Origin: an uncultured Lactobacillus sp.
GTDB lineage: Bacteria; Bacillota; Bacilli; Lactobacillales; Lactobacillaceae
Length of the DNA: 64,000 bases
Direction of reading: 5' to 3'
NCBI GenBank assembly: GCA_946477855.1
Contig: CAMKZU010000009.1
Span: 1 to 64,000, forward strand
Shown one piece after another: positions 39,531-60,462 of the stretch. Numbering within the stretch: position 1 is the stretch's first letter; each line of letters begins with the position of its first letter. The notes under the pieces were generated by a model. That model saw only the letters and a program-made list of their open reading frames with translations. It had not been told where the DNA came from and searched no databases. A program made the translations under genes and the position numbers.

Positions 39531-39572
39531 TAAAGGGCTCCAAAAGCATGGTCGCTTTCGGAGCCCTTTTTC
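39531..39572. terminator. Strong terminator between PTS gene and convergent gene
   Basis: AAAGGGCTCC-AAAGC pairs with GCTTT-GGAGCCCTTT and is followed by TTTT; the reverse strand also shows an A/T run, so it can serve both sides. Confidence 0.88.
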
Positions 39573-39583: not shown

Positions 39584-40060
39584 TTATTGCACCAACTTAA
39601 TTGGCACCTTGATAACCGCCTTTTTACATGGCTTTTCATTAACGTCTAAATCTAAGCAAGCTTCATGAGCATCTTCAGGAAATAAAATAATATAATCTCC
39701 AGGATGTAAGCAAATTGAAGTTGCTGGACCAGTAAAGCGCTGATAATGCGCTACGTCATCCGGGCTTGCAAGTGCATTATCTATTTCAGTCAGGCCGTCA
39801 GGTTTGGTTACCCTTGTTATTTCTGCACCCTTAATTAAATAATGAAAATCAAGGTGCGTTTGATGATTTTCAAAGCGACCCTTTTTTTCGTCTTTCGTAT
39901 TATATTCCTGAATTTTAACAAAAATGCCATCACTGATATCGTATCTGCCAACAGCTAAATTGGTCAAATCGGTTTCTTGCAGCCATTTAAAAGCCTTATC
40001 CAGATACTGATTTTGACGAATGAAAGTAGTAGTTGAATCATTAATATTAGCGTAAATCAT
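39584..40060 (-). CDS. YhcH/YjgK/YiaL-family cupin, probable sugar anomerase
   Basis: A 158-residue cupin of the YhcH/YiaL (DUF386) family. Metal-ligand candidates are in HQTHLDFHYLIKGAE and FPEDAHEACL. Members near sialic-acid genes act as anomerases, and YiaL belongs to an acid-sugar operon, so the family handles anomeric or enol forms of sugars and sugar acids. Here it lies beside a regulated transporter and a four-carbon-acid locus. It may speed the ring opening of that substrate. AGGAAA site before the ATG. It probably forms a two-gene unit with the small gene at 40087. Confidence 0.82.
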   Translation of the reverse strand: MIYANINDSTTTFIRQNQYLDKAFKWLQETDLTNLAVGRYDISDGIFVKIQEYNTKDEKKGRFENHQTHLDFHYLIKGAEITRVTKPDGLTEIDNALASPDDVAHYQRFTGPATSICLHPGDYIILFPEDAHEACLDLDVNEKPCKKAVIKVPIKLVQ

Positions 40061-40086
40061 ATCATTTTCCTTTCTTACATTCTGGG

Positions 40087-40359
40087 TTAATTATTTAGCA
40101 TTTGCTTTGAATTAAGTTGCTGGATCTTATCCACCATTTCATCAAACGAAAGGTTGCTCAATTTTTTATTGGTAGTAAATTGTGTATCTTCTAGAGTGTT
40201 GAAATCACCTATTAAGTAGTATGCGGTCAAGTAACTTAACAAGAATTTTTTGGCCTCAGGTATTAAGTCTTGTTGAGAATAATTCATTTGACGGGCAACT
40301 GTCGCAAAATGATATGCGAATTTTTCTGGATCAATCTGAGTATTTTCGTTAACAGTCAT
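40087..40359 (-). CDS. Small protein of unknown function
   Basis: A 90-residue soluble, helical, mildly acidic protein (ARQMNYSQQDLIPEAKKFLLSYLTAYYLIGDF in the middle). Not recognised. It has a good AAGAAGG site before the ATG and sits 26 bases before the YhcH-like gene on the same strand, so it is likely translated and co-expressed. No catalytic motif or signal peptide is visible. Confidence 0.6.
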   Translation of the reverse strand: MTVNENTQIDPEKFAYHFATVARQMNYSQQDLIPEAKKFLLSYLTAYYLIGDFNTLEDTQFTTNKKLSNLSFDEMVDKIQQLNSKQMLNN

Positions 40360-40431
40360 AGAAAACCTTCTTTCATAAAAATACTTTTAATCCTATTCTA
40401 TATTGCCCAATTAAATTGTTTTAGTGTTTAT

Positions 40432-40512
40432 TGTTTAAAAATAAGACGATAAATATTCATTTACGAGTGATTTCTTTTTATCCAGTAAATAATGTTTAAA
40501 AATAAGACGATA
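40432..40512. repeat. 20-bp direct repeat pair, putative operator
   Basis: The sequence beginning TGTTTAAAAATAAGAC and ending GATA is present without change at 40432-40451 and 40493-40512, 61 bases apart (about six helical turns), in the spacer before the transporter gene. A related copy, TGTTTAAAAGTGAAAC, lies at 43718-43733 in the regulator/kinase spacer. Together they look like binding sites of the PrpR-like regulator. Confidence 0.7.
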
Positions 40513-40552
40513 TTCAATGTAGTTTAGTTATGATTTTTATTAGCATAAACAA

Positions 40553-40566
40553 TGTAAGCGATTAAC
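40553..40566 (+). promoter_or_regulatory. cre-like site before the transporter gene
   Basis: TGTAAGCGATTAAC matches the cre consensus at about 12 of 14 positions and lies 32 bases before the transporter start, suggesting catabolite repression of the locus. Confidence 0.4.
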
Positions 40567-40597
40567 CGGTATGTTTTATTTGAGAGAGGTCATTAAA

Positions 40598-41884
40598 ATG
40601 TCACAAGCGTACATTGTTTTAATTGTAATGGCTGTAATGATCGTAGCAATGGTTTCTGATAAGTTTGATTTTGGATTTGCGCCAGTTGCCGCCTGTACAA
40701 TCTTGGTTTTAACTGGAACAGCCACCGTACAACAAGCATACGGTGGCTTTATTAACAATAACACTATCTTAACTGCAGGATATGTAATTATCAGTTCACT
40801 TTTTGCGCGGACACGTGCCATTCATAAATTACAGGCATTTTTGTTAAAAATTCAAAAAGGTAAAAGTGGGCTGACACTATTTGTAGTTTTGCTATTATTC
40901 ACTGTTATTCTGATGACAGTAATGGAACCGGGACCTGCAACCTTATTAATCTGTTTGGTTTTGTCAACTTTACCTGCAGGTGGTGGTATACCATCGGGAC
41001 AAATGCTGTTGCCGCTGGCTTCAATGGTCGATATTAGCGCTCGTAAAATTCCTATGGGTATGACCATGGTTTATGTGTTAGCGTTAAATAATTTTATTAC
41101 TAACGCTGGCTTCAGCCATACAGTAAGTATGGGCACTTGGATCATTGCCGGTGCAGTGCCACTTTTAGTTGCATTTGTTTATTCCTTAATTGCGTATCGT
41201 GTTTTACCCAAAAAGGAATTAAAAATTGATGCGGGGCAGGATCAAAAAGAACAGGAAGAAGAAGCGACTGATAACTTAAAATCATGGCAGGAAAATTTGA
41301 TTTACATTTCTTTTGTTGTAACTACAATTGCCATGTTTTTTACCAATCAATTAGGAAATATTGTCTACGTTATCCCACTAGTAGGAATTGGCCTGATGTA
41401 TTTTTGCAATATTATCAGTTTTAAAGAAATTCGCGAGGGTATGTCCAGTCCCATTATCTATCTTTTAGGCGGAATGTTTGGTCTTGCTGATATTATGGCT
41501 GCTAAAGGCGTAACCAAAATGATTGGTTCAGCATTACAAGGAGTTCTGGGCAATAATTCCAGCATTTGGGTCATTACCTTTGTCTTTGCTTTTGCGGCGA
41601 CAATCATGGCCAACTTGACCGGCTCGAACATGGGAACAACCATGATTTTAACGCCAATCGCTATTGCAGTGGCTGTTGCTTCCGGACTTGATCCCCGTGC
41701 TGCAGGTTTAGCAACCGTAATTGCGTCTAATGCTGCAGTTATTATGCCAATGGATACTGCCATAGGTATTGCTGTTGCCCAGGGACACTATAAAATTGGC
41801 AGAACATTTGTCTATACTATCCCGTTAACAATAATTTATATCACCGTTGTTGCTGTGATGTGCTGTGTATTATTCCCAGCATAA
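40598..41884 (+). CDS. DASS/SLC13-like carboxylate transporter
   Basis: A 428-residue transporter with about 11 to 12 helices of the ion transporter superfamily. Family-like features are two halves with re-entrant regions (FINNNTILTAGYVIISSLF and ANLTGSNMGTTMILTPIAIAVA, then ASNAAVIMPMDTAIG). Such proteins import dicarboxylates, sulfate or sugar acids with sodium or protons. Lying before a PrpR-like regulator and a DUF1537/PdxA2 locus, it is the likely uptake system for the acid sugar used there. The ATG at 40598 is chosen because a GAGAGAGG site precedes it; ATG 40571 is in frame but has no ribosome site. Confidence 0.82.
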   Translation: MSQAYIVLIVMAVMIVAMVSDKFDFGFAPVAACTILVLTGTATVQQAYGGFINNNTILTAGYVIISSLFARTRAIHKLQAFLLKIQKGKSGLTLFVVLLLFTVILMTVMEPGPATLLICLVLSTLPAGGGIPSGQMLLPLASMVDISARKIPMGMTMVYVLALNNFITNAGFSHTVSMGTWIIAGAVPLLVAFVYSLIAYRVLPKKELKIDAGQDQKEQEEEATDNLKSWQENLIYISFVVTTIAMFFTNQLGNIVYVIPLVGIGLMYFCNIISFKEIREGMSSPIIYLLGGMFGLADIMAAKGVTKMIGSALQGVLGNNSSIWVITFVFAFAATIMANLTGSNMGTTMILTPIAIAVAVASGLDPRAAGLATVIASNAAVIMPMDTAIGIAVAQGHYKIGRTFVYTIPLTIIYITVVAVMCCVLFPA

Positions 41885-41914
41885 TTTGGCAGCAGTTTGA
41901 TAATAACCCAGTTT

Positions 41915-43648
41915 TTACCGTTTTAAATAGCGCCATAAAGTTGCGCGACTAATGTTTAATTCTTTAGCCGTTTTGGTTTTATTGCCATTATTTTCTTTGA
42001 GCGCCTGTTTAATGTCTTGGACGATAATATCATGCAAAGAATGTCCTCGATGTGCGGGACTGGCTACCTTTAAAGCCGCTTGTTCTGGCTGTGATTTTTC
42101 ACTCACAGCCAGCTGAGTTAAGATCAGATCAATATCTTTGCCCTTTAAAATCGGGGCGTCAGCTACTGCTAGGGCAGTAGTCAAAACGTGAATAAATTCG
42201 CGGTAGTTGTGGGGCCACGGGTAACTCGATAGATGGTCTAATGCTGTGTCAGAAATTCCTGAAAAAGTTTTACCCGTCTTTAAATTAAAATCGTTGAGAA
42301 TGGAGTGTACCAACTGATTAAAAACGTCATAAGACATTGCGTTTAAAGGTTTTAAAAAGAGTTCGTTAACTGTGAGGTAATCAGGAAAAGAAATGTTCAA
42401 CTTTGTTCCATAAGGCTGGGTAATTAAGAAAACCAACTTGTTTCTGCCGTCCAAATTCGATTTACGGATAAATTCAAAAAAGTCATTTTGGTCAGAGGCT
42501 GGCAATTTCTCTAAGCCGGTGATCTGAATAAGATGGTGATTATCAAAGAATATCGATTCATTATCAGCAAGAGCTTTGCTTAAGCTTTCATGATCTGACA
42601 GAGAAATCTGAATTGGAGCTGCAGCGTCTGTTTCTTTAAAGATTAGGCTGCCTAAATATTCTTTTTCAAGGCCATCCGCTCCGATTATGGCAACGGGTGC
42701 TTGGAGGTGAGAATAGTGTCTGAGTAATTTGAAAAACTGGTTATCATAGCAGGTCGAATAGACTGAGGAGATATAGTCCGCATCAAAGTGTGTTTGACTG
42801 CTTGATGGAGCTTTTCCTAAATAATCAAGTGTGGCAATTGAAAAGTTGGTTGTCTGCGTTACTACTACGTGCCAGGAGGAATTAGCCCAGGTTACGATCG
42901 GTGTGGCGTCACTGAGCGCTTTACGCACCTTTTTTGCCAAAAATGCGGCTTTTTTCTTATTAGTGCTGAACAGAACGTTAAAATAATTATCTTTTTCAAA
43001 AAAGAGTGTGTAATTATGAAATGCTGCGAGGGTTTCGGAAAGCAGATTGAAGTAATTAATATTTGTTTCCTTTTCCCTAAGTAAGAGAAAACAGGTTTTA
43101 AGTGCTTGATAGACAACTTCGTCTCCCGATTCAATCAGATAAGAATTGAGGTGGTAGATATTGTTGGAAGCGACAATTATGCCTGAATCACAAATTATAT
43201 TGTGATAACCGCTTGCTGCAAGCTTTGCCATTGCATTTTTAATATCCATTTTTTTCTGTACTACATATTTGGTCATTTTAATATTGAATTGAGCCAAAGT
43301 TTGGGAGATAGCTTGATCGAAAGCGTCATAGCAAATGATAGCAGACTCACTCAAGTCTGGAATGCTTTTGATCGTCCGAATAATATCGTACTGGGAAATG
43401 CCAATATCTATTACAGGTACATTGGTTTGTTTTTCCAAAAAAGCGACAGTTCCACCACGGGAAAGTAATAAGTCAAAATCATTATTTTTAACTAAAGCGG
43501 CCAAATTGTTTTTATTCGCTAAATTAGCTAGTTCAATTTGAATTCGAATGTCCAGATCAGCATTTTCTGTTGTTAATTGCTTAAAAAAGTGTTGGACTTT
43601 GTTTCTCAAACCGGGATAGGGAACGATGCAGAGAATTTTAGCAGTCAT
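41915..43648 (-). CDS. PrpR-N sensor regulator with degenerate AAA domain and Fis-type HTH
   Basis: A 577-residue regulator. Residues 1-180 match the PrpR N-terminal sensing domain (CIVPYPGLRNKVQHFF, LLLSRGGTVAFLEK, VIDIGISQYDIIRTI). About residues 310-470 align with the AAA domain of sigma-54 activators but lack a working Walker A (IIGADGLEKEYLGSLI), lack the GAFTGA loop and keep only a trace of the FDNHHLIQITGLE strand. The last 45 residues form a Fis-type HTH (GNKTKTAKELNISRATLWRYLKR). It therefore should act without sigma-54, as a classical DNA-binding regulator. GGAGG before ATG 43648 decides the start; an in-frame ATG at 43699 has none. Target sites: see the repeats at 40432 and 43718. 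Confidence 0.85.
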   Translation of the reverse strand: MTAKILCIVPYPGLRNKVQHFFKQLTTENADLDIRIQIELANLANKNNLAALVKNNDFDLLLSRGGTVAFLEKQTNVPVIDIGISQYDIIRTIKSIPDLSESAIICYDAFDQAISQTLAQFNIKMTKYVVQKKMDIKNAMAKLAASGYHNIICDSGIIVASNNIYHLNSYLIESGDEVVYQALKTCFLLLREKETNINYFNLLSETLAAFHNYTLFFEKDNYFNVLFSTNKKKAAFLAKKVRKALSDATPIVTWANSSWHVVVTQTTNFSIATLDYLGKAPSSSQTHFDADYISSVYSTCYDNQFFKLLRHYSHLQAPVAIIGADGLEKEYLGSLIFKETDAAAPIQISLSDHESLSKALADNESIFFDNHHLIQITGLEKLPASDQNDFFEFIRKSNLDGRNKLVFLITQPYGTKLNISFPDYLTVNELFLKPLNAMSYDVFNQLVHSILNDFNLKTGKTFSGISDTALDHLSSYPWPHNYREFIHVLTTALAVADAPILKGKDIDLILTQLAVSEKSQPEQAALKVASPAHRGHSLHDIIVQDIKQALKENNGNKTKTAKELNISRATLWRYLKR

Positions 43649-43717
43649 AATAACCTCCGTTTCAATTTTGAACATATTTTTAGAGTTAGTATACTTCATT
43701 TTTAATTCCCTGATAAG

Positions 43718-43733
43718 TGTTTAAAAGTGAAAC
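43718..43733. promoter_or_regulatory. Third copy of the TGTTTAAAA operator motif
   Basis: TGTTTAAAAGTGAAAC agrees with the direct repeat before the transporter at 13 of 16 positions. It lies in the divergent spacer between the PrpR-like regulator and the kinase gene. Confidence 0.6.
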
Positions 43734-43807
43734 AAAAAATATTACAGCTTTGTTCTTAATCATTTTAAGATTATCTATGTAAAGAATATCTGATGGCGGG
43801 TGGAAAA

Positions 43808-45064
43808 ATGGCTAAATTTTTGATAATTGCTGATGACTTTACTGGTGCTAATGATACCGGTGTTAAGCTTACAGAAGAAGGTATGCCAGTAAATGTTTTT
43901 TTCTCAGCAATTAATATTGTTCCCCACACTTCTTGTGTAATTGATACGGAAACACGAAATGACTCAGAAAAAACGGCTTATGAAAAAACAAAAACAATCT
44001 TAAATTCAATTGATATGAACCAGTTCGATTTTGTTTATAAAAAAGTTGATTCGACTTTGAGGGGTAATATTGTTACTGAATTGAGAGCGATTAACGACCG
44101 TTTTGCACCAGATTACGTTGTTTTTGCACCAGCCTTGCCGGCGCTAGGCAGGCAGGTAATTAATAAGAAAGTTCTGGTTAGTGGCAAAGAACTGCACAAA
44201 ACGGAATTTGCCTGCGATCCCGTTAAACCGGTATTACTGGATAATGTTGAAACAATCTTGGCCCAAAGCTTTGGCGTTAATAACGTGCAATATTACTCTT
44301 TAAAAGATTTACGGTCTAACAAGGATTTGGATTTGAGCAAAAAGTGCTTTGGCTTTGATACCGAAAATGATGAGGATTTTTGCAAGATTGTTTCTCTATT
44401 TCAGGGATTAAAAGGCAAAATCCTCTGGGTTGGCTCCTCTGGTCTAATTGAAGGAATGGTCAAAAAGAGCAGTGTAGTAACACCGGCAATTGCCTTGGTT
44501 GGCAGCGTCAGCAGTAAAACTAGAAAACAGATTCTTTATGCCAAAGAAAATGGGCTGGCTATCATTGCCTTGCCGATTTATGAAATTTATAAAACAGAAA
44601 ATTATTCTGAATACGTTGACCAGGCTGTACACATTTTAAAAAAAGGCAGAAATTTGGCCCTGGTATCTTCCGCATCACTAGAAAGGGCAGATTTAATAAA
44701 AACCAAGACCAGTTTTAATGATGCTGGCATAGTTGGTACGGAAATGGAGAACACCATTCAAATGATACTGGCAGGTATTTGCCGCCGCGTGATTAAAGAA
44801 TTTCCTGTTTCTGGCTTATTTGTCACTGGCGGTACAACTGCACAAAGTATTTTAAGAATTGTGAAGGCGCAGGGAACGGTAATTAGAGAAGAAGTTGCTT
44901 TGGGGATGCCGCTATTAACCGTTGTTGGTGGTGAGTTTGACGGCATTAATATGATTTCTAAAGCTGGTGCTTTTGGAGATTCGAGTTTGATTATGTTTGG
45001 TTTAAATAAATTACGTTCTTTAGGAAAGAAGGCAGAAATATCATGGAATTACAAGAAAGCTTAA
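43808..45064 (+). CDS. Four-carbon acid sugar kinase (DUF1537)
   Basis: A 418-residue kinase of the DUF1537 family, which phosphorylates D-threonate, D-erythronate, L-threonate or 3-oxo-tetronates. The N-terminal substrate domain starts IIADDFTGANDTGV, with VYKKVDSTLRGN. The C-terminal nucleotide-binding domain has VTGGTTAQSILR and VVGGEFDG. The family partners with PdxA2, which lies four genes downstream in the same operon. The ATG at 43808 fits a purine-rich GGCGGGTGGA site; ATG 43793 is in frame but would use none. The stop lies 22 bases inside the next gene, so translation is coupled. Confidence 0.9.
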   Translation: MAKFLIIADDFTGANDTGVKLTEEGMPVNVFFSAINIVPHTSCVIDTETRNDSEKTAYEKTKTILNSIDMNQFDFVYKKVDSTLRGNIVTELRAINDRFAPDYVVFAPALPALGRQVINKKVLVSGKELHKTEFACDPVKPVLLDNVETILAQSFGVNNVQYYSLKDLRSNKDLDLSKKCFGFDTENDEDFCKIVSLFQGLKGKILWVGSSGLIEGMVKKSSVVTPAIALVGSVSSKTRKQILYAKENGLAIIALPIYEIYKTENYSEYVDQAVHILKKGRNLALVSSASLERADLIKTKTSFNDAGIVGTEMENTIQMILAGICRRVIKEFPVSGLFVTGGTTAQSILRIVKAQGTVIREEVALGMPLLTVVGGEFDGINMISKAGAFGDSSLIMFGLNKLRSLGKKAEISWNYKKA

Positions 45065-46188
45065 CTGCTAAATTTGACAGAACTATGTTGTTGCCAGATT
45101 CGGGAATTCAAAGTCATGCTTCCAACTTATTGATATTACCTAATGGTGATACCTTTTGTACTTGGTTTTCAGGTACTGAAGAAGGCACAGACGACATTAC
45201 CATTTTTATGGCTGAATTGAGAGCAGGAACAGATAGCTGGTCAAAGCCGGTTCCAATGTCGAACAATCCCGGTCGCTCCGATCAAAATCCAGTTTTATTT
45301 GCGGCACCTGATGGCGATATTTGGCTACTTTATACTTCTCAAGTTGGTGGAAATGAAGATACGGCAATAATTCAATATCGTGTTTCACATGATAATGGGA
45401 AAACATGGAGCATGCAAAGTAATCTATTTCCAGGTGAAAGTGGTCTGTTTATTCGTCATCCGCTAGTTGTAACTGCTAATGGAGAGTGGCTTTTGCCCCT
45501 TTATCATTGTGTGGTTAAAAATGACGGCAAACCGTGGGATGGCAGTTATGATTACAGTTGCGTCCGGGTTTCGCAGGATAGCGGACAAACTTGGAAAGAA
45601 TACGAAGTCCCTGATAGTCAGGGCTGCGTTCAAATGAGTATTGTCAAGTTGCAAAATAACGCAGGATATGTAGGCTTTTTTAGAAGTCGCTGGGCTGATA
45701 ATATCTACCGTTCTTTTTCTAATGACGGCAGCCGCTGGACGCCACCTAAGGCAATTGACTTGCCGAATAATAATTCATCTATTCAAGCAGCACTGCTGCC
45801 TGACGGCAACATAATTTTAGCTTTTAATAAGTCCAGTGCTGAAGATGCAACAGTGAGAAGACTATCATTATTTTCCGAAAAAACCACGGCAAAGGAAACG
45901 TCCAACAAAAAAGCTGCTAAAACTGCTTTTTGGGGTGCGCCCCGGGCACCATTAACCGTAGCAATTTCAGAAGATAACGGTAAAACTTGGCCCTATGTAA
46001 GAAATATTGCCGAAGGCAGTGGTTATGCCCTCACTAATAATTCTAAAGATAAGAAGAATAGGGAATTTTCGTATCCCTCAGTTAAACCGACAAGAAACGG
46101 CAAAATTGCTTTGACGTTTACCTATTTCAGGCAAAATATTGCTTTTGTCGAGTTTACAGAAGACTGGGTCAAAGAAGAAAAGGAGTAA
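45043..46188 (+). CDS. Asp-box beta-propeller protein (sialidase-like fold), cytosolic
   Basis: A 381-residue protein of the BNR/sialidase superfamily with four visible Asp boxes (VSHDNGKTW, VSQDSGQTW, FSNDGSRW, ISEDNGKTW) and the signature SHASNLLILPNGDTFCTWFSGTEEG. It lacks the RIP arginine motif of true sialidases and has no signal peptide, so sialic acid release is unlikely. Other beta-propellers of this kind act on uronic-acid-linked sugars as lyases or hydrolases. Its place between an acid-sugar kinase and an alcohol dehydrogenase suggests that it processes an imported glycoside or lactone of a sugar acid; this is inference. A GGAAAGAAGG site within the kinase gene precedes the ATG. Confidence 0.75.
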   Translation: MELQESLTAKFDRTMLLPDSGIQSHASNLLILPNGDTFCTWFSGTEEGTDDITIFMAELRAGTDSWSKPVPMSNNPGRSDQNPVLFAAPDGDIWLLYTSQVGGNEDTAIIQYRVSHDNGKTWSMQSNLFPGESGLFIRHPLVVTANGEWLLPLYHCVVKNDGKPWDGSYDYSCVRVSQDSGQTWKEYEVPDSQGCVQMSIVKLQNNAGYVGFFRSRWADNIYRSFSNDGSRWTPPKAIDLPNNNSSIQAALLPDGNIILAFNKSSAEDATVRRLSLFSEKTTAKETSNKKAAKTAFWGAPRAPLTVAISEDNGKTWPYVRNIAEGSGYALTNNSKDKKNREFSYPSVKPTRNGKIALTFTYFRQNIAFVEFTEDWVKEEKE

Positions 46189-46195
46189 GACTGTG

Positions 46196-47350
46196 ATGAA
46201 AGAAGCTTTTTTAAAGTTACCCCAGAGGGTATATCTGGGTGAAAATTTACTGGACAAATTAGGTGAATTTTTGCAAACCAGAAAAAATACGAATGTTTTA
46301 CTTTTCACGGATCAAGGACTGTTAAAAGCGGGTTTGGTTCAACCGCTAGAAGATTACCTGCAAGCACATGGTATTGCTTATCAAATTGAATCCGAAATTA
46401 AACCTGAACCAAGCTATATTCAAGTTGATGCTCTTTTTAAGAAGGTTAGCCAGTTTAACTTCAATACGATCGTAGCTATCGGGGGCGGCTCGGTAATGGA
46501 TGCTGCCAAACTGATTTCACTATTGCTTCATACCGATTTGAGCGTTAAAGATCTGATTAATGATCCGACCAAAGCACAAAAACACTGTGCCACCGTTTTT
46601 ATTCCGACTACTGCGGGTACAGGTTCAGAAGCTACAATTAATGCGATAGTCAGCATTCCAGAAAAACAGGTTAAGTTTGGTATTGTAGCGGATGCAATGC
46701 TCCCGGATTTAGTTCTGCTTGATGGCAATAATGTTAAAAACCTACCCAAGTCAATTCTTGCCTCGTCAGCAATTGATGCCCTCAGCCACTGCGTTGAATG
46801 TTATACGGCTAAAAACGCCACTGTAATGAGTGACGGTGTGGCACTTCTTGGTGCTAAATTGATTTTTAAGAATATTATTAAGGCCTATCAAGACACAAAG
46901 GATATTCAGGCACGTGAAGCGCTGCAACTGGGTGCCTTTTATGGTGGTGTAGCAATCACCGCTTCCGGAACCAACATAGTTCATGCCTTGTCGTATCCGC
47001 TTGGTGGCAAATTCCATATTGCTCATGGCGTAGCTAATGCCATTTTATTTAAAGCATGCATGGAAACTAACAAGCCGGCGATTGAAGATCGTTTAGCAGC
47101 ACTTTGCACTAATATTTGGCCGGAAGAAGGCAGTAAAAGTACTAGTGCAAAAGCCGATTTTGTAATTGCTAAGATTGCAGAAATTGTTGCAAAAACCGAA
47201 ATACCAACTGATCTTAAAAAATTTGGTGTACAGGAAACAGACTTGGACTTTTTAGTTGATTCAGCACTAGAGCAAAAGCGCTTGCTCAGTCACAATCTGA
47301 AAAAATTAACGCGCTCAGAAATTGCTCAAATTTATAAAGCAGTAATGTAG
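46196..47350 (+). CDS. Iron-containing alcohol dehydrogenase family protein
   Basis: A 384-residue group III dehydrogenase. NAD binding is shown by IVAIGGGSVMDAAKLISLL. Metal-ligand region motifs are TTAGTGSEATINAIVSI, SSAIDALSHCVECYTA and HALSYPLGGKFHIAHGVANAILF. Family substrates include lactaldehyde, glycerol, 4-hydroxybutyrate and maleylacetate. In this operon it probably oxidises or reduces a hydroxy or oxo group of the acid sugar or its cleavage product. Starts at GTG 46193 or ATG 46196 both fit the AAGGAG site; longer ATG 46139 lies inside the propeller gene and has no ribosome site. Confidence 0.88.
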   Translation: MKEAFLKLPQRVYLGENLLDKLGEFLQTRKNTNVLLFTDQGLLKAGLVQPLEDYLQAHGIAYQIESEIKPEPSYIQVDALFKKVSQFNFNTIVAIGGGSVMDAAKLISLLLHTDLSVKDLINDPTKAQKHCATVFIPTTAGTGSEATINAIVSIPEKQVKFGIVADAMLPDLVLLDGNNVKNLPKSILASSAIDALSHCVECYTAKNATVMSDGVALLGAKLIFKNIIKAYQDTKDIQAREALQLGAFYGGVAITASGTNIVHALSYPLGGKFHIAHGVANAILFKACMETNKPAIEDRLAALCTNIWPEEGSKSTSAKADFVIAKIAEIVAKTEIPTDLKKFGVQETDLDFLVDSALEQKRLLSHNLKKLTRSEIAQIYKAVM

Positions 47351-47372
47351 TTTAGAAGGAGGAGTTTTTAAA

Positions 47373-48275
47373 ATGTGTCAAACAAAGATTGCTCAGGGTA
47401 TTATTGCAGCAATGGTGACCCCGATGGATGAAAATGGTCAAATAAATTATGCAGAGTTGAAAAATCAGGTTGAGCGGCAGATTAATGCCGGCATCAGCGG
47501 AGTTTTTACGCTAGGCACAAACGGTGAAGGATATATTCTTAGCCATGATGAAAAATTAAAAGTGATGGAAACGGTAATTAAACAGGCAAATCACCGGGTT
47601 CCAGTATATGTGGGCACAGGTTGTGTTTCAACAGCAGAAACAATTCAGTTGTCGCAGCAAGCTGAGGAGTTAGGGGCAGACGCATTATCAGTTATTACTC
47701 CGTGGTTTGCGCAAGCTTCACAGGAAGATATATTTAAACATTATCAAGCTTTAAATGATGCTGTTCATATTCCAATTTTGCTTTATAACATCCCTGCAAG
47801 GACGGGCAATGCTCTTGCACCTAAAACTGTGGCTCGCCTGGCCGATTTGCCGCATATTGCTGGTATTAAGGATTCAAGCGGTAATTTTGACAATATTTTA
47901 CAGTACATTGAATTAACCAGAAATAAGGACTTTGCAGTCATATCAGGTAATGATTCTCTCATTTTGTGGACTTTAAAAGCTGGAGGTACCGGTGGTATTG
48001 CTGCTTGTGCGAATGTATTACCGGAAATTATGGTATCAATCTACCGCTACTATCAAGCTGGTAAATGGGAAGAAGCTAGGAAAGCGCAAGATTCTATCCG
48101 TCCGTTTAGAAATTGTTTCAAGTTGGGAAATCCGAATACAATTGTTAAGGAAGCAACTAATGTCATGGGCTATCCTGTGGGGATGCCACGTGCACCATTT
48201 AATGGTTTAACTAAAGAAGCAGTGACGACCATTCAAAATACTATAGATAAGTATTACAGTGAATATAAAAAGTAG
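47373..48275 (+). CDS. DHDPS/N-acetylneuraminate lyase family aldolase or dehydratase
   Basis: A 300-residue TIM-barrel class I enzyme. Key residues seen are Schiff-base K166 in GIKDSSG, Tyr138 in LLYNIPARTG and the phosphate/carboxylate loop LGTNGEGY. The family condenses or splits pyruvate-containing sugar acids. A lysine-biosynthesis role is unlikely because it lies between an iron dehydrogenase and pdxA2 rather than with dap genes. Likely roles are a 2-keto-3-deoxy-acid aldolase or a dehydratase. An AAGGAGGAG site gives strong translation. Confidence 0.88.
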   Translation: MCQTKIAQGIIAAMVTPMDENGQINYAELKNQVERQINAGISGVFTLGTNGEGYILSHDEKLKVMETVIKQANHRVPVYVGTGCVSTAETIQLSQQAEELGADALSVITPWFAQASQEDIFKHYQALNDAVHIPILLYNIPARTGNALAPKTVARLADLPHIAGIKDSSGNFDNILQYIELTRNKDFAVISGNDSLILWTLKAGGTGGIAACANVLPEIMVSIYRYYQAGKWEEARKAQDSIRPFRNCFKLGNPNTIVKEATNVMGYPVGMPRAPFNGLTKEAVTTIQNTIDKYYSEYKK

Positions 48276-48295
48276 TTGAAAAGGAGACAAAACTG

Positions 48296-49324
48296 ATGGG
48301 CAGACCAATTGTTGGTATTACAATGGGAGATCCTGCAAGTATAGGACCGGAAATATCTTTGAAAACTTTTCAGGATCAACGACTTTATGAAAAATGCCGA
48401 CCTTTATTGATAGGTGATAGTAATGTTCTCGAAAAAGTAATGGAAATATTGCCTGACCGTAAACTGCAGCTTAACCCCATTACTAACGTTAAAGATGCTA
48501 AGTTCCAATACGGGACAATGGATGTTTACGATATGCACGAAGTTGAAATTTCTGAATTGCAGTTTGGCCAAGTCAGCAAAATGGCGGGTAACGCTGCTTT
48601 TCAATATGTCAAAAAAGTGATTGACTTGGCTAATGCCCATGAAGTTGATGCTACCGTAACGAATGCCCTAAACAAAGAGGCAATGAACTTAGCAGGACAC
48701 CACTATGCTGGGCATACTGAAATCTATGGTAAATTTACCCATACTCCAAACTATACTATGATGCTCGCCCACGGCAATTTAAGGGTGGTTCATGTTTCTA
48801 CACACGTTTCTTTGAGAAAAGCCTGTGATTTGGTGAAAAAGCCTAGGGTTGCAGAATGTATTAAGCTGGCTGACGAGGTTTGCCGTAATTTGGGCATCAA
48901 AAATCCGCGGGTAGCAGTTGCAGGGCTAAACCCACATGCAGGAGAAAATGGCTTATTTGGTGATGAAGAAATAAAGGAAATTGCACCTGCGGTTGCAGAA
49001 ATGCGGGCAAAAGGCGTTAACGTGACTGGTCCCGTTCCTGCTGATACAGTTTTTGCAAAATGTCATGGCGGGATGTACGACATTGTAGTTGCAATGTATC
49101 ATGACCAAGGACATATACCGGTAAAAGTAATTGGCTTTCAATATGATGAGCAAAAGAAGAAGTGGGATAGTGTTGCAGGAATCAATGTCACTTTGGGTCT
49201 GCCAATTATCAGAACGTCGGTTGATCATGGCACCGCCTTTGATCAGGTTCTTAAAGGCACAGCTAATGAGGTCAGTTTAAAAAATGCAATTGATTATGCC
49301 GTTAAACTAGCTGAAAACAAGTAG
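48296..49324 (+). CDS. pdxA2: PdxA2, 4-phospho-acid sugar dehydrogenase
   Basis: A 342-residue member of the PdxA family. It opens ITMGDPASIGPEI and has metal-ligand histidines in AGHTEIYG, MYHDQGHIP and SVDHGTAFD. PdxA2 proteins that travel with DUF1537 kinases oxidise and decarboxylate 4-phospho-threonate or erythronate to dihydroxyacetone phosphate, which enters glycolysis. The absence of other pyridoxal genes supports catabolism over vitamin B6 synthesis. It closes the operon before a terminator. GGAG before the ATG. Confidence 0.9.
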   Translation: MGRPIVGITMGDPASIGPEISLKTFQDQRLYEKCRPLLIGDSNVLEKVMEILPDRKLQLNPITNVKDAKFQYGTMDVYDMHEVEISELQFGQVSKMAGNAAFQYVKKVIDLANAHEVDATVTNALNKEAMNLAGHHYAGHTEIYGKFTHTPNYTMMLAHGNLRVVHVSTHVSLRKACDLVKKPRVAECIKLADEVCRNLGIKNPRVAVAGLNPHAGENGLFGDEEIKEIAPAVAEMRAKGVNVTGPVPADTVFAKCHGGMYDIVVAMYHDQGHIPVKVIGFQYDEQKKKWDSVAGINVTLGLPIIRTSVDHGTAFDQVLKGTANEVSLKNAIDYAVKLAENK

Positions 49325-49399: not shown

Positions 49400-49437
49400 G
49401 CAAAAAAGAGCTATCAGTGCGATAGCTCTTTTTATTT
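49400..49437 (+). terminator. Terminator after pdxA2
   Basis: AAAGAGCTATC pairs with GATAGCTCTTT around AGTGC and is followed by TTTT. Confidence 0.88.
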
Positions 49438-49578: not shown

Positions 49579-50343
49579 CTATCTAAGATATGCGGTATAG
49601 CCAAAATAGAGAGCTTGACACAGGGTAAGAGCTGCAATAGTCCACTTCATAACTTTGATGGGAATAAAACGCATTGCTTTAGGCCCTAGATAACTACCAA
49701 AAAGAACGCCAATTGCCAGTGGTATTGCTGCGGACCAGTATACTTTAGAAGTGAAAATATAAATAATTAAAGCAACAAAATTATTTAATGCGTTAATCAC
49801 ATTTTTCATGGCATTAACAGTTAAGAATTTGTCATCAGTTATTAAATTAAGAATGCCCAGCATTAAAACTCCTGCTGCTGCGCCAAAGTACCCGGTATAT
49901 AAACCGGTAATTATAATACAAAGTAAAGTAATAAACTTAAAAACTAGTTTATTTTTGGAGCTATTGTTCTTAAAGTCTTTCGGTTTAGGTAATAACACCA
50001 TAATGCCTGAAAAGGCAATACAAAAAGGAACAATTTTTTCAAAAGTCTTGCTGGGGAATCTAATAAGTAAAAAGCAGCCAATAATTGAACCGAAAATAGA
50101 AAAACAAGCAAAAAATAGCAGTTTTTGCCAGTGTCCTTTTAATTCATTAATTGATGAGGCCGTAGAGCCAATGCCAGCCCAAATTAGGGCAGCATCATTT
50201 GTTATGTTGGCGTAAATAGGAGGAATACCCAGTGAAAGTAAAACCGGATAGGTTGCTAAAGATGCCATGCCTGCCATAGTTGATGCTAATCCACCGAAAA
50301 TGCCTCCCAAAACAAGATAGATAAATAAAAATACTGTTTTCAT
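49579..50343 (-). CDS. TSUP (TauE/SafE)-family membrane exporter
   Basis: A 254-residue protein with about eight helices and the TSUP pattern: GGIFGGLASTMAGMASLATYPVLLSLGIPP at the N-terminus and TGLYTGYFGAAAGVLMLGIL opening the second half. The family moves sulfite, sulfonates or organic anions. It lies divergent from glucarate dehydratase, and it might carry an organic acid of the pathway, but sulfur compounds are equally possible. AAGGA site before the ATG. Confidence 0.85.
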   Translation of the reverse strand: MKTVFLFIYLVLGGIFGGLASTMAGMASLATYPVLLSLGIPPIYANITNDAALIWAGIGSTASSINELKGHWQKLLFFACFSIFGSIIGCFLLIRFPSKTFEKIVPFCIAFSGIMVLLPKPKDFKNNSSKNKLVFKFITLLCIIITGLYTGYFGAAAGVLMLGILNLITDDKFLTVNAMKNVINALNNFVALIIYIFTSKVYWSAAIPLAIGVLFGSYLGPKAMRFIPIKVMKWTIAALTLCQALYFGYTAYLR

Positions 50344-50506: not shown

Positions 50507-51847
50507 ATGGCAGTTATTCCTAAAGTGACGGAGGTTAAGGTAATACCGGTTGCAGGTTATGACAGTCCAACTTTGACTTTGAGTGGATGTCATTACCCTT
50601 TTTTTACCAGAAATATTGTTATTATCAAGGACGATAGTGGCAATCAAGGCATTGCAGAAATACACGGCGGTGAGCCAATTAAAAAATCTCTGGAATCATA
50701 TATTCCTTTTGTAATTGGACACGATATAAGCGACTATCGTAACATTATTAAAAATATTCAGGAAAAAATTGGGCATCCAGATGACAAGGGAGAAGGCATT
50801 CAAAAACTTGATATCTCTCAGTTACAGTATGTTGTCCATGCTGAAGCAGCCATTGAATGTGCGCTATTAGACTTAATGGGGCAGTTTTTACATAAACCAA
50901 TGGTGGACATTATTGGTCAAGGCAGACATAGGGACTCCGTACCTTTTTTAGGTTATTTGTTCTATGTTGCGGATCGTGACAAAATTGACTTACCTTATAT
51001 TAAGGATGATCAAAACCAAGGGGCTGATGAATGGTCTAAAATCAGACGGTCAGAAATCATGGATGCAGATGGCATTGTCAATGAAGCCCGCGTACTTCAC
51101 GAAAAATATGGCTTTACCAGTTTTAAATTAAAGGGTGGGGTTTTTGATGGTAAAACTGAAATGGAAACCGTTAAAAAATTACATGAGACTTTTCCTAATT
51201 ACCGCATAAATATTGACCCTAATGGTTGCTGGTCCCTAGAAGAAGCAATTGACTTAATGAAAAAGTATGGCACTAATCTTACCTATGTTGAAGATCCTAC
51301 AAATGCGGAAGCAGGCTTTTCAGGTCGTGAAGTTCTCAGCTATTTCAGGAATGCTACTAATATGTCGGTAGCAACGAATATGATTGCTGTAAACTGGAAA
51401 CAGCTTTATCCAGCCTTGCAAATGAAAGCGATAGATATAGTTTTAGCTGATCCTCACTTTTGGGGGATTGAAGGTACTTTAAGAGTTGCAGCAATTTTGA
51501 ATGATTGGGGGTTAACTTGGGGATCGCACTCTAATAATCATTTTGACATTACGCTGGCTTTATATGCGCAAGTTGCTGCGGCAGCACCTAAGATTACTCC
51601 TGTTGATACGCATTGGATTTGGCAAGACGGACAACAGCTCTGTGATGACGCTTTGCAAATTAAAAAAGGGCAAATTCGTATCCCTAATCGCCCTGGTTTG
51701 GGCGTCACCATTAATGAAAATAAGCTGGCAAAAGCCCATGAATTGTACGAAAAGTTAGGCTTTAAGGGCCGTGATGACACCAAGGCAATGCAGTATCTTA
51801 TAAAAGGTTGGCAGTTTGATCCTGATCATCCAGTATTTGTGAGGTAG
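50507..51847 (+). CDS. gudD: Glucarate dehydratase
   Basis: An enolase-superfamily dehydratase of 446 residues, the length of Escherichia coli GudD, which turns D-glucarate (or L-idarate) into 5-dehydro-4-deoxyglucarate. Motifs in order are FKLKGGV (the KxK base), IDPNGCWS and VEDPTNAEAGFSGREV (metal ligands), ATNMIA, the His base in GSHSNNHFDI, and the end pattern PGLGVTI-E-KLAKAHELY. The match to GudD runs along the whole protein. The next enzyme of the usual pathway (GarL or KdgD) is not adjacent; the DHDPS-family gene at 47373 could serve. GAGAGG before the ATG. Two hydrolase genes follow closely. Confidence 0.93.
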   Translation: MAVIPKVTEVKVIPVAGYDSPTLTLSGCHYPFFTRNIVIIKDDSGNQGIAEIHGGEPIKKSLESYIPFVIGHDISDYRNIIKNIQEKIGHPDDKGEGIQKLDISQLQYVVHAEAAIECALLDLMGQFLHKPMVDIIGQGRHRDSVPFLGYLFYVADRDKIDLPYIKDDQNQGADEWSKIRRSEIMDADGIVNEARVLHEKYGFTSFKLKGGVFDGKTEMETVKKLHETFPNYRINIDPNGCWSLEEAIDLMKKYGTNLTYVEDPTNAEAGFSGREVLSYFRNATNMSVATNMIAVNWKQLYPALQMKAIDIVLADPHFWGIEGTLRVAAILNDWGLTWGSHSNNHFDITLALYAQVAAAAPKITPVDTHWIWQDGQQLCDDALQIKKGQIRIPNRPGLGVTINENKLAKAHELYEKLGFKGRDDTKAMQYLIKGWQFDPDHPVFVR

Positions 51848-51849
51848 TT

Positions 51850-52791
51850 ATGATAAAAACAATTAATCCTGGAAGAAACGAAAAACCAATAGACTTTTGG
51901 GATGACATAATTTATTCAAAAGTAACAGATTTATCTGGTAATAAAGTAAATTTAAAGCTATCCGTTATGGATCAAGAAGAAAATCCGCGTCCAATAGTTG
52001 AATCCCCTGTATATGCCAAAAGAAAAAAAGATAATTTTAAACGTCCTGCAATTATCTGGGTCCCTGGCGATGGGTACAGGCAGACTAATAATAAAAATAA
52101 AGATCTAGGCAGAACTCATTACTTTGCAAAACAAGGATTTGTAGTTGTTTCTGTTCAATATAGATCAAGTGCGCAAGCAAAATGGCCTGCGCAGATTATT
52201 GATGTCAAGACTGCTATAAGATGGGTTCGAAAACACGCAGCAGATTATCAAATCGATGCTGACCATATTGGAATAATGGGAAGATCAGCTGGAAGTCATA
52301 TTGCTGTAGTTGCGGCTATGAATGAAGAACAAAAATATATTGCAAATGAATATCAGGACTTTTCTTCTTCTGTTCAAGCTTGTATTGATTTGTTTGGCCC
52401 CGTAAATATTCAGGATTTGATCTCTCAAGATAGGGAATTAATTAAGTCACCTGGATTTAGATGGCATAAAATGTCTGATACCCATGAAGGGGCATTATTG
52501 GGACATGATCCCGATCACAATCCGCAAAAAGAATGGCAATTAGGATATGAAGCTAGTCCTATCAATTTTGTTAACGCAAACACTGCACCTATTTTGATTA
52601 TGCAGGGCGACAAAGATCCATTAGTTCCAACTAAAGTAAGTGAAGAACTCTATCAAAAATTAGTAGAAGCAGGACTTGAATCTCAGTCATATTTGTATTG
52701 GGTAAAAGATGCAGGTCATGGGACCCCTGAGATTTTTCAAGATTCAGCATTGCAAATTATGTCAGATTTTTACCAAAAATATTTATTTTAA
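51850..52791 (+). CDS. Alpha/beta hydrolase, esterase or lactonase type
   Basis: A 313-residue soluble hydrolase. The nucleophile elbow is GRSAG in IGIMGRSAGSHIAV. The acid is in QGDKDPLVP and the His in DAGHGTPE. The oxyanion region lies in VPGDGYRQTNN. The BD-FAE/acetyl-esterase-like pattern suggests removal of acyl groups from sugars or opening of a lactone. It begins two bases after gudD, so it belongs to the same operon. A link with a glucarate lactone or ester is inference. Confidence 0.82.
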   Translation: MIKTINPGRNEKPIDFWDDIIYSKVTDLSGNKVNLKLSVMDQEENPRPIVESPVYAKRKKDNFKRPAIIWVPGDGYRQTNNKNKDLGRTHYFAKQGFVVVSVQYRSSAQAKWPAQIIDVKTAIRWVRKHAADYQIDADHIGIMGRSAGSHIAVVAAMNEEQKYIANEYQDFSSSVQACIDLFGPVNIQDLISQDRELIKSPGFRWHKMSDTHEGALLGHDPDHNPQKEWQLGYEASPINFVNANTAPILIMQGDKDPLVPTKVSEELYQKLVEAGLESQSYLYWVKDAGHGTPEIFQDSALQIMSDFYQKYLF

Positions 52792-52809
52792 TTAGAAAGA
52801 AGAAAAACA

Positions 52810-53592
52810 ATGGAAGTCGAAATTAAAAGGGATGGCTTAATTTTAAAAGGAGTTTTGCATGTTCCACAAGATAAAAGAAATTATGATTTGTTGCTGCTAT
52901 TTGAAGGTTTGAGGGGTGACCATACTCACGCTACTGTGAGTGGCATTGCCCAAGTAGTTGAAAAGCAAGGTTTTGCTACATTTAATTTTGATTTTGAAAG
53001 TCGGGGTCAAAGTGAAGGCAAATTTGCGGATATGACTTTACTGGGGCAAATTCTGGATGCAGCTGCGGCGTTGAAATATGTTAGATCTTTACCAGGTGTA
53101 AGAAAAATTTATGTTGTAGGGCATTCTACTGGAGGACTAGTAGCACCTCTGCTAGCAGGGTACTTTCATGACCAGATTAGTGGCTTAATTTTAGTTTCTC
53201 CTGCATTGACTGCAGTTAAGCAAGCCAGAGAAGGTCAAATATTTGGTCAAGAGTTTGACCCTGTTCACGTGCCAGAAAAAATATCTTTGCCAACTACAAA
53301 TAATGTTTCACACATTAAATACAATGAAGAATTTGATCTAAACGGTTTCTACATTCGCCAGCTGCAAAGTTTGCCGATGTACCAGATAGCCAAGTTATTT
53401 ACTGGTCCAGTATTGCTGCTACATGCAGAAAAAGATGAAGAAGTTTCACCACAGGCTTCGTATTGGTTTAGAGGGCTATTTGAGAATTCAAAGTTGTATT
53501 TTATTAAAGGAGCTACGCATGGCTTCAAGGAGCCTGGAGTTGCTGTAGATGCGGGAAAATATGTAGCGCAATTTATGTCTGCTCACCATTAG
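52810..53592 (+). CDS. Alpha/beta hydrolase, cinnamoyl/feruloyl esterase-like
   Basis: A 260-residue hydrolase resembling the cinnamoyl esterases of Lactobacillus along its length (IKRDGLILKGVL, FNFDFESRGQSEGKFADMTLLGQILDAAAAL, YVVGHSTGGLVAPLLAG). The triad is Ser in GHSTG, Asp in EKDEEVSP and His in GATHGF. The usual HGF oxyanion motif reads FEGL here, so its activity may differ. Such enzymes free ferulic, caffeic or coumaric acid from plant esters, for example from quinic acid or pectin. It ends the gudD operon at a bidirectional terminator. Confidence 0.82.
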   Translation: MEVEIKRDGLILKGVLHVPQDKRNYDLLLLFEGLRGDHTHATVSGIAQVVEKQGFATFNFDFESRGQSEGKFADMTLLGQILDAAAALKYVRSLPGVRKIYVVGHSTGGLVAPLLAGYFHDQISGLILVSPALTAVKQAREGQIFGQEFDPVHVPEKISLPTTNNVSHIKYNEEFDLNGFYIRQLQSLPMYQIAKLFTGPVLLLHAEKDEEVSPQASYWFRGLFENSKLYFIKGATHGFKEPGVAVDAGKYVAQFMSAHH

Positions 53593-53603
53593 TGGTCAAA
53601 AAA

Positions 53604-53640
53604 TAAAGTGTGATCAAGCTTGATACTTTATCACACTTTA
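53604..53640. terminator. Bidirectional terminator
   Basis: TAAAGTGTGAT pairs with ATCACACTTTA across a loop of about 16 bases, between convergent genes. Confidence 0.75.
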
Positions 53641-53666
53641 TTTGCTTTTTTTATTATTTTACTTTA

Positions 53667-54839: not shown

Positions 54840-54942
54840 TAGCAGGCCTCCTAAGTAATCAAATATGTTCTTTGTGACACTTTTAACTTAACACGCTTTT
54901 TAATTAAAGGAAACGGATTTAAAGCTGATACGCAAAGTATCC

Positions 54943-54954
54943 GGGATGGATCCC
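54943..54954. promoter_or_regulatory. Short dyad in the divergent GntR spacer
   Basis: GGGATGGATCCC has five-base arms around two bases. It lies in the spacer between the enolase-superfamily gene and the FCD regulator and is a weak operator candidate. Confidence 0.3.
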
Positions 54955-54999
54955 AGAAAAATAATTATTAAAATTTTGCTGTTTGAAAGGAAAAATAAA

Positions 55000-55671: not shown

Positions 55672-55772
55672 CATGAACTTTTTGGACTACTCATGAAATA
55701 ATCGGGAATATATTTGAAAATGCTTCTAATATAAACTAAAAATAACAAGAGAAAAGTGTAGGAGGATTTTAA

Positions 55773-56705: not shown

Positions 56706-56707
56706 TT

Positions 56708-56740
56708 GGCATGCTATATGAAAAGCTTGCCTTTTCTTTT
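56708..56740 (+). terminator. Terminator after the L-HicDH-like gene
   Basis: GGCATGCT pairs with AGCTTGCC with one T-T mismatch around eight bases and is followed by TTTTCTTTT. Confidence 0.65.
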
Positions 56741-56784
56741 AACTATATTTGTGAAATACTGAACTAATAGAAAGAGAGCTAATT

Positions 56785-57969: not shown

Positions 57970-57973
57970 AGCT

Positions 57974-59284: not shown

Positions 59285-59315
59285 CAGGCAGCCACTTTTA
59301 AATATATAAAAAAGT

Positions 59316-59338
59316 AATCCTACTACTAGGATTGTTTC
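59316..59338. terminator. Short hairpin between convergent genes
   Basis: AATCCTA pairs with TAGGATT around CTAC, followed by GTTTCTT; a modest terminator for the GntP gene. Confidence 0.55.
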
Positions 59339-60256: not shown

Positions 60257-60462
60257 ATCTATTATTCCAATTTTATATATTACTATTCTCTATTACGTTA
60301 TTTTGAGTGCTTATTATTCAATTATACTATGTGTGGAAGTGATAACAATATTTTTATACGGAGGATCACTATGAAATGTGAATATTATTTGTTTTTGTTG
60401 ATTCAAAAATTGAGCATATTAGTCAAGAAATATGCTGCTAGTTACGGTAAGGAGCAATCAAG

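Follow-up and report, generated by a model that had tools for sequence, protein, structure and literature searches.

A sialidase-like propeller locus in Lactobacillus as a candidate pathway for the pectin sugar acid Dha

A stretch of 64,000 nucleotides from an uncultured Lactobacillus sp. (assembly GCA_946477855.1, contig CAMKZU010000009.1; hereafter the window) carries, at 39,584 to 49,324, a locus that encodes a sialidase-like propeller together with a carrier, a regulator and a set of acid-sugar enzymes. The outline of the pathway, in which a sugar acid would be converted to pyruvate and, through D-threonate, to dihydroxyacetone phosphate (DHAP), can be proposed with high confidence. It is reasonably probable that these genes form a catabolic module analogous to the sialic-acid (nan) pathway, with another substrate and another lower half, and to a similar degree probable that the substrate is 3-deoxy-heptulosarate (Dha) from rhamnogalacturonan II (RG-II). 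Comparison gives the gene order, the protein families and their conservation, the D-threonate assignment in gammaproteobacterial relatives, and the fold and residue pattern of the propeller; every reaction in this Lactobacillus, the substrate and the target of the propeller are inferred.

Gene content and proposed route

All of the named genes are open reading frames (ORFs) where a sequence-only reading of the window had placed them, and the Pfam matches are concordant. The gene order is yhcH (minus strand), an ORF of 90 aa (minus), the carrier gene (plus), the regulator gene (minus) and then, all on the plus strand, the kinase, propeller, iron alcohol dehydrogenase (Fe-ADH), aldolase and pdxA genes. 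From the kinase gene to pdxA, neighbours overlap or are separated by gaps of 7-22 nt, and a strong terminator-like hairpin found by hairpin search (49403..49433, plus) follows pdxA, making co-transcription of the five genes plausible. The comparison bears out the sequence-only reading that the locus is an operon by which an acid sugar is used by way of a four-carbon acid, and that a carrier and a regulator of its own belong to it.

In the proposed route, the DASS/CitMHS-type carrier (40571..41884, plus; Pfam CitMHS) would import a divalent sugar acid or a small conjugate of one. The BNR_2 propeller (45043..46188, plus; Pfam, structure model and alignments), predicted to be a cytoplasmic exo-ketosidase of sialidase-like fold, would act as a remodelled sialidase and free a 2-keto sugar acid from its ketosidic bond, and the YhcH/DUF386 protein (39584..40060, minus; Pfam PF04074, 112.7 bits), a predicted anomerase or “openase” for a cyclic ulosonic acid, would open the ring. 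The DHDPS-family aldolase (47373..48275, plus; Pfam, NCBIfam and alignment), predicted to be a Dha aldolase, would then split the open acid into pyruvate and a four-carbon semialdehyde, a DapA-type reaction on a dihydroxy analogue of aspartate semialdehyde. Fe-ADH (46196..47350, plus; ORF and Pfam), a predicted D-threuronate (2,3-dihydroxy-4-oxobutanoate) reductase, would turn the semialdehyde into D-threonate. The DUF1537 kinase (SBD_N and NBD_C domains; 43793..45064, plus; Pfam, NCBIfam and PDB), predicted to be a DtnK-like D-threonate kinase, would yield D-threonate 4-phosphate, and the PdxA2-type dehydrogenase (48296..49324, plus; Pfam, NCBIfam and PDB), predicted to act as a decarboxylating D-threonate 4-phosphate dehydrogenase, would oxidise and decarboxylate this to DHAP and CO2. 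The sum of these steps would be redox-neutral, with one ATP spent.

The upper half of this route resembles nan catabolism (GH33, YhcH/NanQ, NanA) in having a sialidase-fold propeller, a YhcH-family anomerase and a DHDPS-family pyruvate aldolase, and in the logic of freeing, opening and cleaving the sugar acid. Unlike nan, the locus has no NanK/NanE/NagA route; after a predicted reduction, the aldehyde would be channelled into metabolism by way of D-threonate, DtnK and PdxA2. Also unlike the nan sialidase, the propeller seems to be cytoplasmic and is without the canonical first Arg, Asp and Glu. The lower half corresponds to the D-threonate pathway of DtnK and PdxA2, reportedly described by Zhang et al. 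in 2016, in which a kinase is followed by a decarboxylating dehydrogenase that yields DHAP. The difference is that the acid is here predicted to be made intracellularly by the aldolase and Fe-ADH and not to be imported. DtnK is named in PMC10971088.

D-threonate and the distribution of the gene set

The best NCBIfam match of the window kinase is D-threonate kinase (NF047819; 242 bits, E 1e-71, below the cut-off of 450), and its best PDB match is 4xfm. The window PdxA scores 347 bits on the D-threonate 4-phosphate dehydrogenase model (NF002891), below the cut-off of 583; it passes the general PdxA model (342.6, cut-off 290) and reaches its top score, 398, on another PdxA model, below that model's cut-off of 470. 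The closest solved structure is 6e85, a D-threonate 4-phosphate dehydrogenase (E 6e-92).

The same genes are found in E. coli. In strains Nissle 1917 and CFT073, which were examined in detail as two of 1043 matching genomes, a DeoR regulator, PdxA2, dtnK, Fe-ADH, the aldolase, a TerC protein, the propeller, YhcH and an SLC13 permease are encoded between glnS and nagE; in MG1655 nagE adjoins glnS and the cluster is absent from this site. When the Nissle stretch that begins with Fe-ADH, continues with the aldolase, TerC and propeller genes and ends with YhcH was used as query, matches with at least 95% identity that cover 80% or more of the query were found in 1043 of the 5426 complete genomes of E. 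coli, always on the chromosome; the aldolase-to-propeller stretch of Klebsiella matches 1043 of the 5426 in part. Among the 25 E. coli matches listed, the named genes agree, and BEN2908 has an IS1 inside the stretch. Identities between Nissle and the window are 49% for the propeller and 41% for the aldolase, 32% over 420 aa for the SLC13 permease and the window carrier (E 3e-70), and 26% over 117 columns for YhcH. The Nissle kinase passes the D-threonate kinase model (533 bits, cut-off 450), as the Nissle PdxA passes that of D-threonate 4-phosphate dehydrogenase (681.6, cut-off 583). When eleven kinase and PdxA domains of other relatives were scanned, one of seven kinases (Klebsiella, 505.9) and one of four PdxA proteins (Pantoea, 657.8) passed; the alpha- and betaproteobacterial proteins and one Lactobacillaceae kinase stayed below the cut-offs. 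By these curated models the four-carbon acid is D-threonate in gammaproteobacteria, and the assignment is extended to the other hosts because they share the gene set. The sequence-only reading had named threonate or erythronate breakdown through the kinase and PdxA; the four-carbon acid stands, sharpened to D-threonate in relatives.

This E. coli cluster has been listed as GR 6 of strain BEN2908, between nagE and glnS, with a similar cluster noted in Sinorhizobium meliloti 1021 (PMC12928451, 2026). GR 6 has the same set of genes as the window (CitT-like carrier, YhcH, COG4692 propeller, DapA-like protein, Fe-ADH, DtnK and PdxA2) and differs in having a DeoR/GlpR regulator, not one of PrpR type, and the TerC protein. 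In the accessible text of that paper the region stands under sugar metabolism, its kinase and PdxA are linked to vitamin B6 synthesis, and no substrate or pathway is proposed. PdxA and DUF1537 members can feed the synthesis of pyridoxal phosphate, as cited there, so that genes related to vitamin B6 have to be considered. Such a role is nevertheless highly improbable and was rejected: in the E. coli cluster, both kinase and PdxA score above the cut-offs of the D-threonate models, and B6 synthesis offers no place for the aldolase, propeller, YhcH or diacid-type carrier. A “D-threonate metabolism” region also appears among colibactin-associated genes (PMC9125672); that it is the GR 6 cluster is a guess. 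The earlier view that the combination of genes is peculiar to the window is not supported, as the set is widespread.

Thirty-four loci, the window included, were compared with one script. They were chosen from propeller matches, so that counts are not frequencies; they are not independent (the window and L006 are near identical, and there are several same-genus pairs), their lengths vary, and absences hold within the stretch concerned. Left out were L001-L005, L014 and L015 (shorter versions of loci already included), L012 (in which phmmer did not find the propeller), L035 (the same 30,207-base contig as L008), L039, L041 (CFT073), L042 (MG1655) and L043 (a longer L026). The combination of propeller, DHDPS aldolase, Fe-ADH and PdxA is seen in 24 of the 34 loci, which speaks for the propeller as an integral part of the set and against its being unrelated to acid-sugar use, albeit in loci picked by the propeller. 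The DUF1537 kinase is present in 23 of these 24 core loci, with a weak match (54 bits) on the Pantoea ananatis plasmid and no match on that of P. stewartii. On these two plasmids (L044 and L016) no full kinase gene lies between pdxA and Fe-ADH, unlike in Klebsiella and E. coli. Core loci are found in Lactobacillaceae, on a single plasmid from the Clostridia (Subdoligranulum) and in proteobacteria of the alpha, beta and gamma classes. In one locus each of Pseudoroseomonas and Streptomyces, the propeller is accompanied by the aldolase alone, and in the eight other BNR_2 relatives, whose propellers are 26-39% identical to that of the window, PdxA, Fe-ADH and kinase are all without match in the fetched stretches, with weak DHDPS matches in four of the eight. 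The carrier type varies (DASS type, sodium:solute symporter, Opp-type ABC), and genes for tricarboxylate-type binding proteins lie close by in L045 and L046.

Pairwise distances of the four core proteins correlate (r 0.54-0.75, 21 of the 24 core loci), and none of 2000 permutations gave values as high; common descent of the hosts alone could give part of this correlation. The set is patchy, as no other listed genome of the same genus matches: in the family survey with the propeller as query, five of 397 genomes match at E 1e-30 or better, the genome's own included. Surveys of the phylum and the order (3 of 398 and 2 of 295 genomes match, own included) gave no core locus outside Lactobacillaceae, their two new matches being L037 and L038, or short forms of them, without the core. 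Among plasmids, 312 records match the propeller, led by Rhizobium (128), Sinorhizobium (78), Pantoea and Agrobacterium; the 20 plasmid records retrieved were 18 from the propeller matches and two from another search. The aldolase gene on the Rhizobium leguminosarum 248 plasmid (L019:8951-9919) is unannotated and looks frame-disrupted near its start, through sequencing error or decay. A gene for the TerC-family membrane protein lies with the cluster in E. coli (L040:8943-9701) and in two Lactobacillaceae loci (L036:13953-14717, L008).

This distribution bears on whether the locus serves ordinary D-threonate or erythronate use, with a lysine DapA and a lectin-like or inactive propeller inserted as unrelated genes. 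The window aldolase passes the DapA model (TIGR00674; 239 bits, cut-off 206) and is the sole PF00701 gene found in the source metagenome-assembled genome (MAG), which is 67% complete. Against this, a second PF00701 gene lies elsewhere in the genome of Lactobacillus helsingborgensis, the E. coli cluster aldolase stays below the DapA cut-off (189.7), and the set is conserved across phyla. Insertion of bystander genes is thus quite improbable: plain threonate or erythronate use was rejected for the conservation of the gene set, and a DapA for lysine for the second PF00701 gene.

The propeller and the candidate substrate

The predicted structure of the propeller (pLDDT 87, 13-sequence input) has sialidases as its top Foldseek matches (E 2e-15, best 50 of 1212). 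It superposes on sialidase 1eus with TM scores of 0.71/0.76 at 15% identity, and identity to sialidases is 12-16% among the Foldseek matches listed. These top matches point to the six-bladed sialidase-type fold, sialidases being six-bladed (PMC6811678). For the active site, a profile of 30 relatives was aligned to the clostridial sialidase 2vk5. Tyr344, which aligns with the 2vk5 nucleophile, and Arg214, which aligns with the second sialidase arginine, are invariant (30 of 30), as is Arg301, which fits the third arginine because it precedes the last Asp-box and lies at a suitable distance from the Tyr; the catalytic numbering of 2vk5 used to place these residues is presumed. The first arginine is replaced by His25 in 28 of 30, leaving the triad incomplete. 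The column of the acid/base Asp (46) is variable, and Glu47 occupies the adjacent position in 29 of 30; at position 197, where the Glu that pairs with the Tyr would be expected, 29 of 30 have Gln or His. The claim that the propeller lacks the sialidase arginine motif therefore holds for the first Arg and not for the other two, which are conserved along with the nucleophile. No signal peptide is apparent on inspection by eye, in line with the earlier reading. The site looks built for a carboxylate at the anomeric carbon and a Tyr nucleophile, and is not that of a standard sialidase.

A comparable enzyme may be GH143 of Bacteroides thetaiotaomicron, a Dha hydrolase described as a two-domain protein in which a five-bladed propeller with a Tyr-Glu pair acts, through its catalytic Tyr, on a ketosidic C7 acid (PMC6811678). 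GH143 is absent among the PDB matches listed (60 of 83; best 50 of 1212), and no direct comparison with the BT1020 module was made.

The retained pair of sialidase-type arginines, pointing to a ketosidic acid, also speaks against another explanation, in which the propeller hydrolyses a conjugate that contains D-threonate, and the aldolase and Fe-ADH handle the other half. The kinase and dehydrogenase that pass curated models in relatives would agree with it, and the strong Opp-type binding-protein matches in L019, L020 and L026 would suit larger substrates. This explanation requires, however, a second half ending in a 2-keto-3-deoxy acid, of which we know none, and it appears distinctly unlikely.

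Formation of D-threonate from a C4 semialdehyde released together with pyruvate implies a C7 2-keto-3-deoxy diacid that is D-threo at C5/C6. By Fischer projections drawn by hand, Dha agrees with this: it has the D-lyxo configuration at C4-C6, and when the chain is numbered from the opposite end its C5 and C6 correspond to C3 and C2 of D-threonate. To our knowledge, Dha is the only natural compound that fits this retrosynthesis, and we know of no other natural C7 ulosaric acid. As the D-threonate kinase match of the window preceded the idea of Dha, the agreement is one of consistency and not a blind prediction; the passes of E. coli, Klebsiella and Pantoea came after it. A divalent anion is what a DASS-type carrier would be expected to take up, and a mostly cyclic acid is in keeping with the presence of YhcH. 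In DapA, the Arg of the NxPxRTG motif binds the carboxylate of aspartate semialdehyde; this Arg is kept (NIPARTG) in 14 of the 20 core loci of alignment A2, the window included, and is Lys in two. The aldolases of the other four (L019, L020, L030, L032) and of L025 are of a distant type, 23-26% identical to the window, with neither Arg nor Lys at this position. In plants, Dha is exclusive to RG-II, and it is structurally related to sialic acid (PMC12168206). YhcH proteins open Neu5Ac for its aldolase and are no help with a largely open 2-keto-3-deoxy acid (PMC8141875). On the N-acetylneuraminate anomerase model (NF040884, cut-off 160), YhcH of the window scores 78.3 bits and that of Nissle 90.5, as expected if the substrate is not Neu5Ac.

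Other substrates were considered and set aside. Neu5Ac was rejected, as the window proteins do not reach the curated anomerase and NanA models; Kdo would yield pyruvate and arabinose, leaving the threonate genes unexplained; and in routes from a C4 aldose, the iron alcohol dehydrogenase would not be expected to make the acid. The sequence-only reading had proposed an imported acid-sugar conjugate; its acid-sugar logic is retained, whereas a generic uronic-acid disaccharide gives way to a C7 ulosaric acid, with Dha favoured.

Further evidence for Dha comes from Streptomyces sp. NBC_00184 (L043), where genes for the aldolase, an Opp-type importer and the propeller lie in a row on one strand and an apiosidase-like gene comes immediately after that of the propeller. 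Genes for GH127 beta-L-arabinofuranosidase-like, GH95, GH78 and GH2 proteins, three GH28 proteins and a pectinesterase flank this run, as do genes whose nearest matches are OiaX and OiaK of the apiose pathway, both below cut-off. RG-II contains apiose, and its Dha is capped by beta-L-arabinofuranose. This locus supports the substrate more than the whole pathway, because its propeller has a low identity to that of the window and Fe-ADH, PdxA and kinase are without match in its shorter stretch (L026). In the window itself, a PL4-type lyase-like protein (16344-18032; domains II and III above cut-offs, the lyase domain just below) and an arabinofuranosidase-like protein would count for Dha and RG-II as well. 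The same chemistry might instead serve another 3-deoxy-2-ulosaric acid, for example one that differs from Dha at C4, or the Dha might stem from surface glycans of bacteria and not from RG-II; Dha occurs in the lipopolysaccharide of Rhizobiaceae. The retrosynthesis fixes C5/C6 and the chain length and not C4 or the source, most matching plasmids are from Rhizobium or Sinorhizobium, and the annotated Rhizobiaceae stretches list no pectinase, in an incomplete annotation. Set against this are the RG-II-type context in Streptomyces and the lack of another natural C7 ulosaric acid known to us; this is an unlikely alternative, the least so of those considered.

Several observations weigh against the proposed module and its substrate. 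The kinase, PdxA and YhcH of the window lie under the D-threonate and anomerase cut-offs, and none of the proteins tested outside gammaproteobacteria passes, the kinase model naming itself gamma. Judged by alignment, the aldolase is not one orthologous group across the core loci. An SDR oxidoreductase, found in 12 of the 24 core loci, has no place in the scheme, and YhcH is without match in 12 of 16 core proteobacterial loci. L037, a BNR_2 relative without the core, has a propeller 39% identical to that of the window, as close as some core members. The Streptomyces propeller is only 37% identical to that of the window (34.8% in a second comparison), and in the shorter Streptomyces stretch (L026) Fe-ADH, PdxA and kinase are without match. 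As the aligned acid/base Asp and catalytic Glu are not conserved, glycosidase activity of the propeller is not assured; and a carrier of DASS type would fit a small free diacid, whose use does not obviously call for a cytoplasmic glycosidase. Finally, no paper on RG-II use by this Lactobacillus group was found, all of the matches listed being plant papers. Given Dha as the substrate, the propeller is nevertheless a good candidate for the hydrolase of the Dha ketoside and probably acts as such, with confidence limited by the diacid-type carrier, which leaves room for a lactone or anhydro form.

Regulation, neighbouring genes and implications

The regulator (41915..43699, minus; Pfam) has a PrpR_N domain, a degenerate AAA+ region and a Fis-type helix-turn-helix (HTH_8). 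Neither a Walker A pattern nor a GAFTGA-like motif was found in the AAA+ region, and the Pfam scan gave no Sigma54_activat row; the hallmark motifs of a sigma-54 activator of PrpR type are thus lacking. The protein is perhaps a one-component regulator derived from such an activator. The PrpR-like label of the sequence-only reading is thus borne out by the PrpR_N and HTH_8 domains and not by the AAA+ region; similarly, its DASS transporter agrees with the CitMHS match in Pfam, whereas the carrier scores only 76 bits on the DASS model (cut-off 198.6). An RpoN domain was found in the MAG and in four of five other genomes tested, with none in G345; as this genome has the same operon (L035), a requirement for sigma-54 is unlikely. 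A repeat search revealed two near-identical direct repeats of 23 nt, 61 nt apart (40429..40512, plus), upstream of the carrier gene. Nowhere else in the window is there a copy of their 20-nt core (0.03 expected), even with three mismatches allowed, and the pair may be the operator of the carrier gene.

The ATG at 40598 is a more likely start for the carrier than 40571, and for Fe-ADH, whose ORF opens at TTG 46139, the ATG at 46196 is likelier. The 90-aa ORF between yhcH and the carrier gene (40087-40359, minus; ORF list) is without match in Pfam and NCBIfam scans, and a terminator-like hairpin of 17 pairs (39532..39569, minus; hairpin search) lies downstream of yhcH. Rfam and tRNA scans of the window gave no matches. 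A sulfonate reading, suggested by a TauE/SafE gene (49579-50343), was dropped, as this gene is on the opposite strand beyond the terminator.

Elsewhere in the window, a plant-glycan region (7761-24722) encodes a GH2 beta-galactosidase, two MFS sugar carriers, a ROK protein and an aldose epimerase. Its part at 16-24 kb includes the PL4-type protein, a weak GDSL match, a protein with an arabinofuranosidase C-terminal domain and a sugar carrier, and an 827-aa protein (12797-15280) is without match in Pfam and PDB searches. Downstream of the operon, a second acid-sugar island (50507-61746) encodes an LDH-type dehydrogenase, a GntP permease, a second CitMHS carrier and enolase-family proteins. Three of its genes resemble enolase-family acid-sugar dehydratases, one of them glucarate-dehydratase-like (569 bits, cut-off 829). 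Among named relatives, strain Bma5 of L. helsingborgensis, a honey-bee gut species, was the nearest found, with a propeller identity of 98%.

On balance, it is somewhat probable that these genes represent a missing catabolic pathway for Dha, a sugar of RG-II that has received little study, consisting of a sialidase-like cytoplasmic ketosidase, an anomerase, a Dha aldolase, a threuronate reductase and D-threonate kinase and dehydrogenase. No Dha catabolic pathway, nor one for this cluster, was found in the accessible open-licence literature, beyond which other papers may exist, and this agrees with the earlier suggestion that the substrate may be new. RG-II is present across plants (PMC12168206), so that both bees and people take it in with their food. 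How Bacteroides thetaiotaomicron hydrolyses it is established (PMC12282258); no account of the fate of the freed Dha was found in that same literature. If the proposal is true, the source of D-threonate for the DtnK-PdxA2 pathway would be explained, as would the reason why lactobacilli, rhizobia, Pantoea and about one fifth of complete E. coli genomes share these genes. A pathway in E. coli Nissle 1917 would make the fate of Dha answerable by knock-outs in a probiotic strain, and would give new names to genes now labelled “exo-alpha-sialidase”, “dapA” and “pdxA” on many plasmids and in about 1000 E. coli genomes. For the lactobacilli, it would suggest a niche in cross-feeding on pectin breakdown, in which the locus described here most likely breaks a rare sialic-acid-like pectin sugar into two ordinary metabolites.

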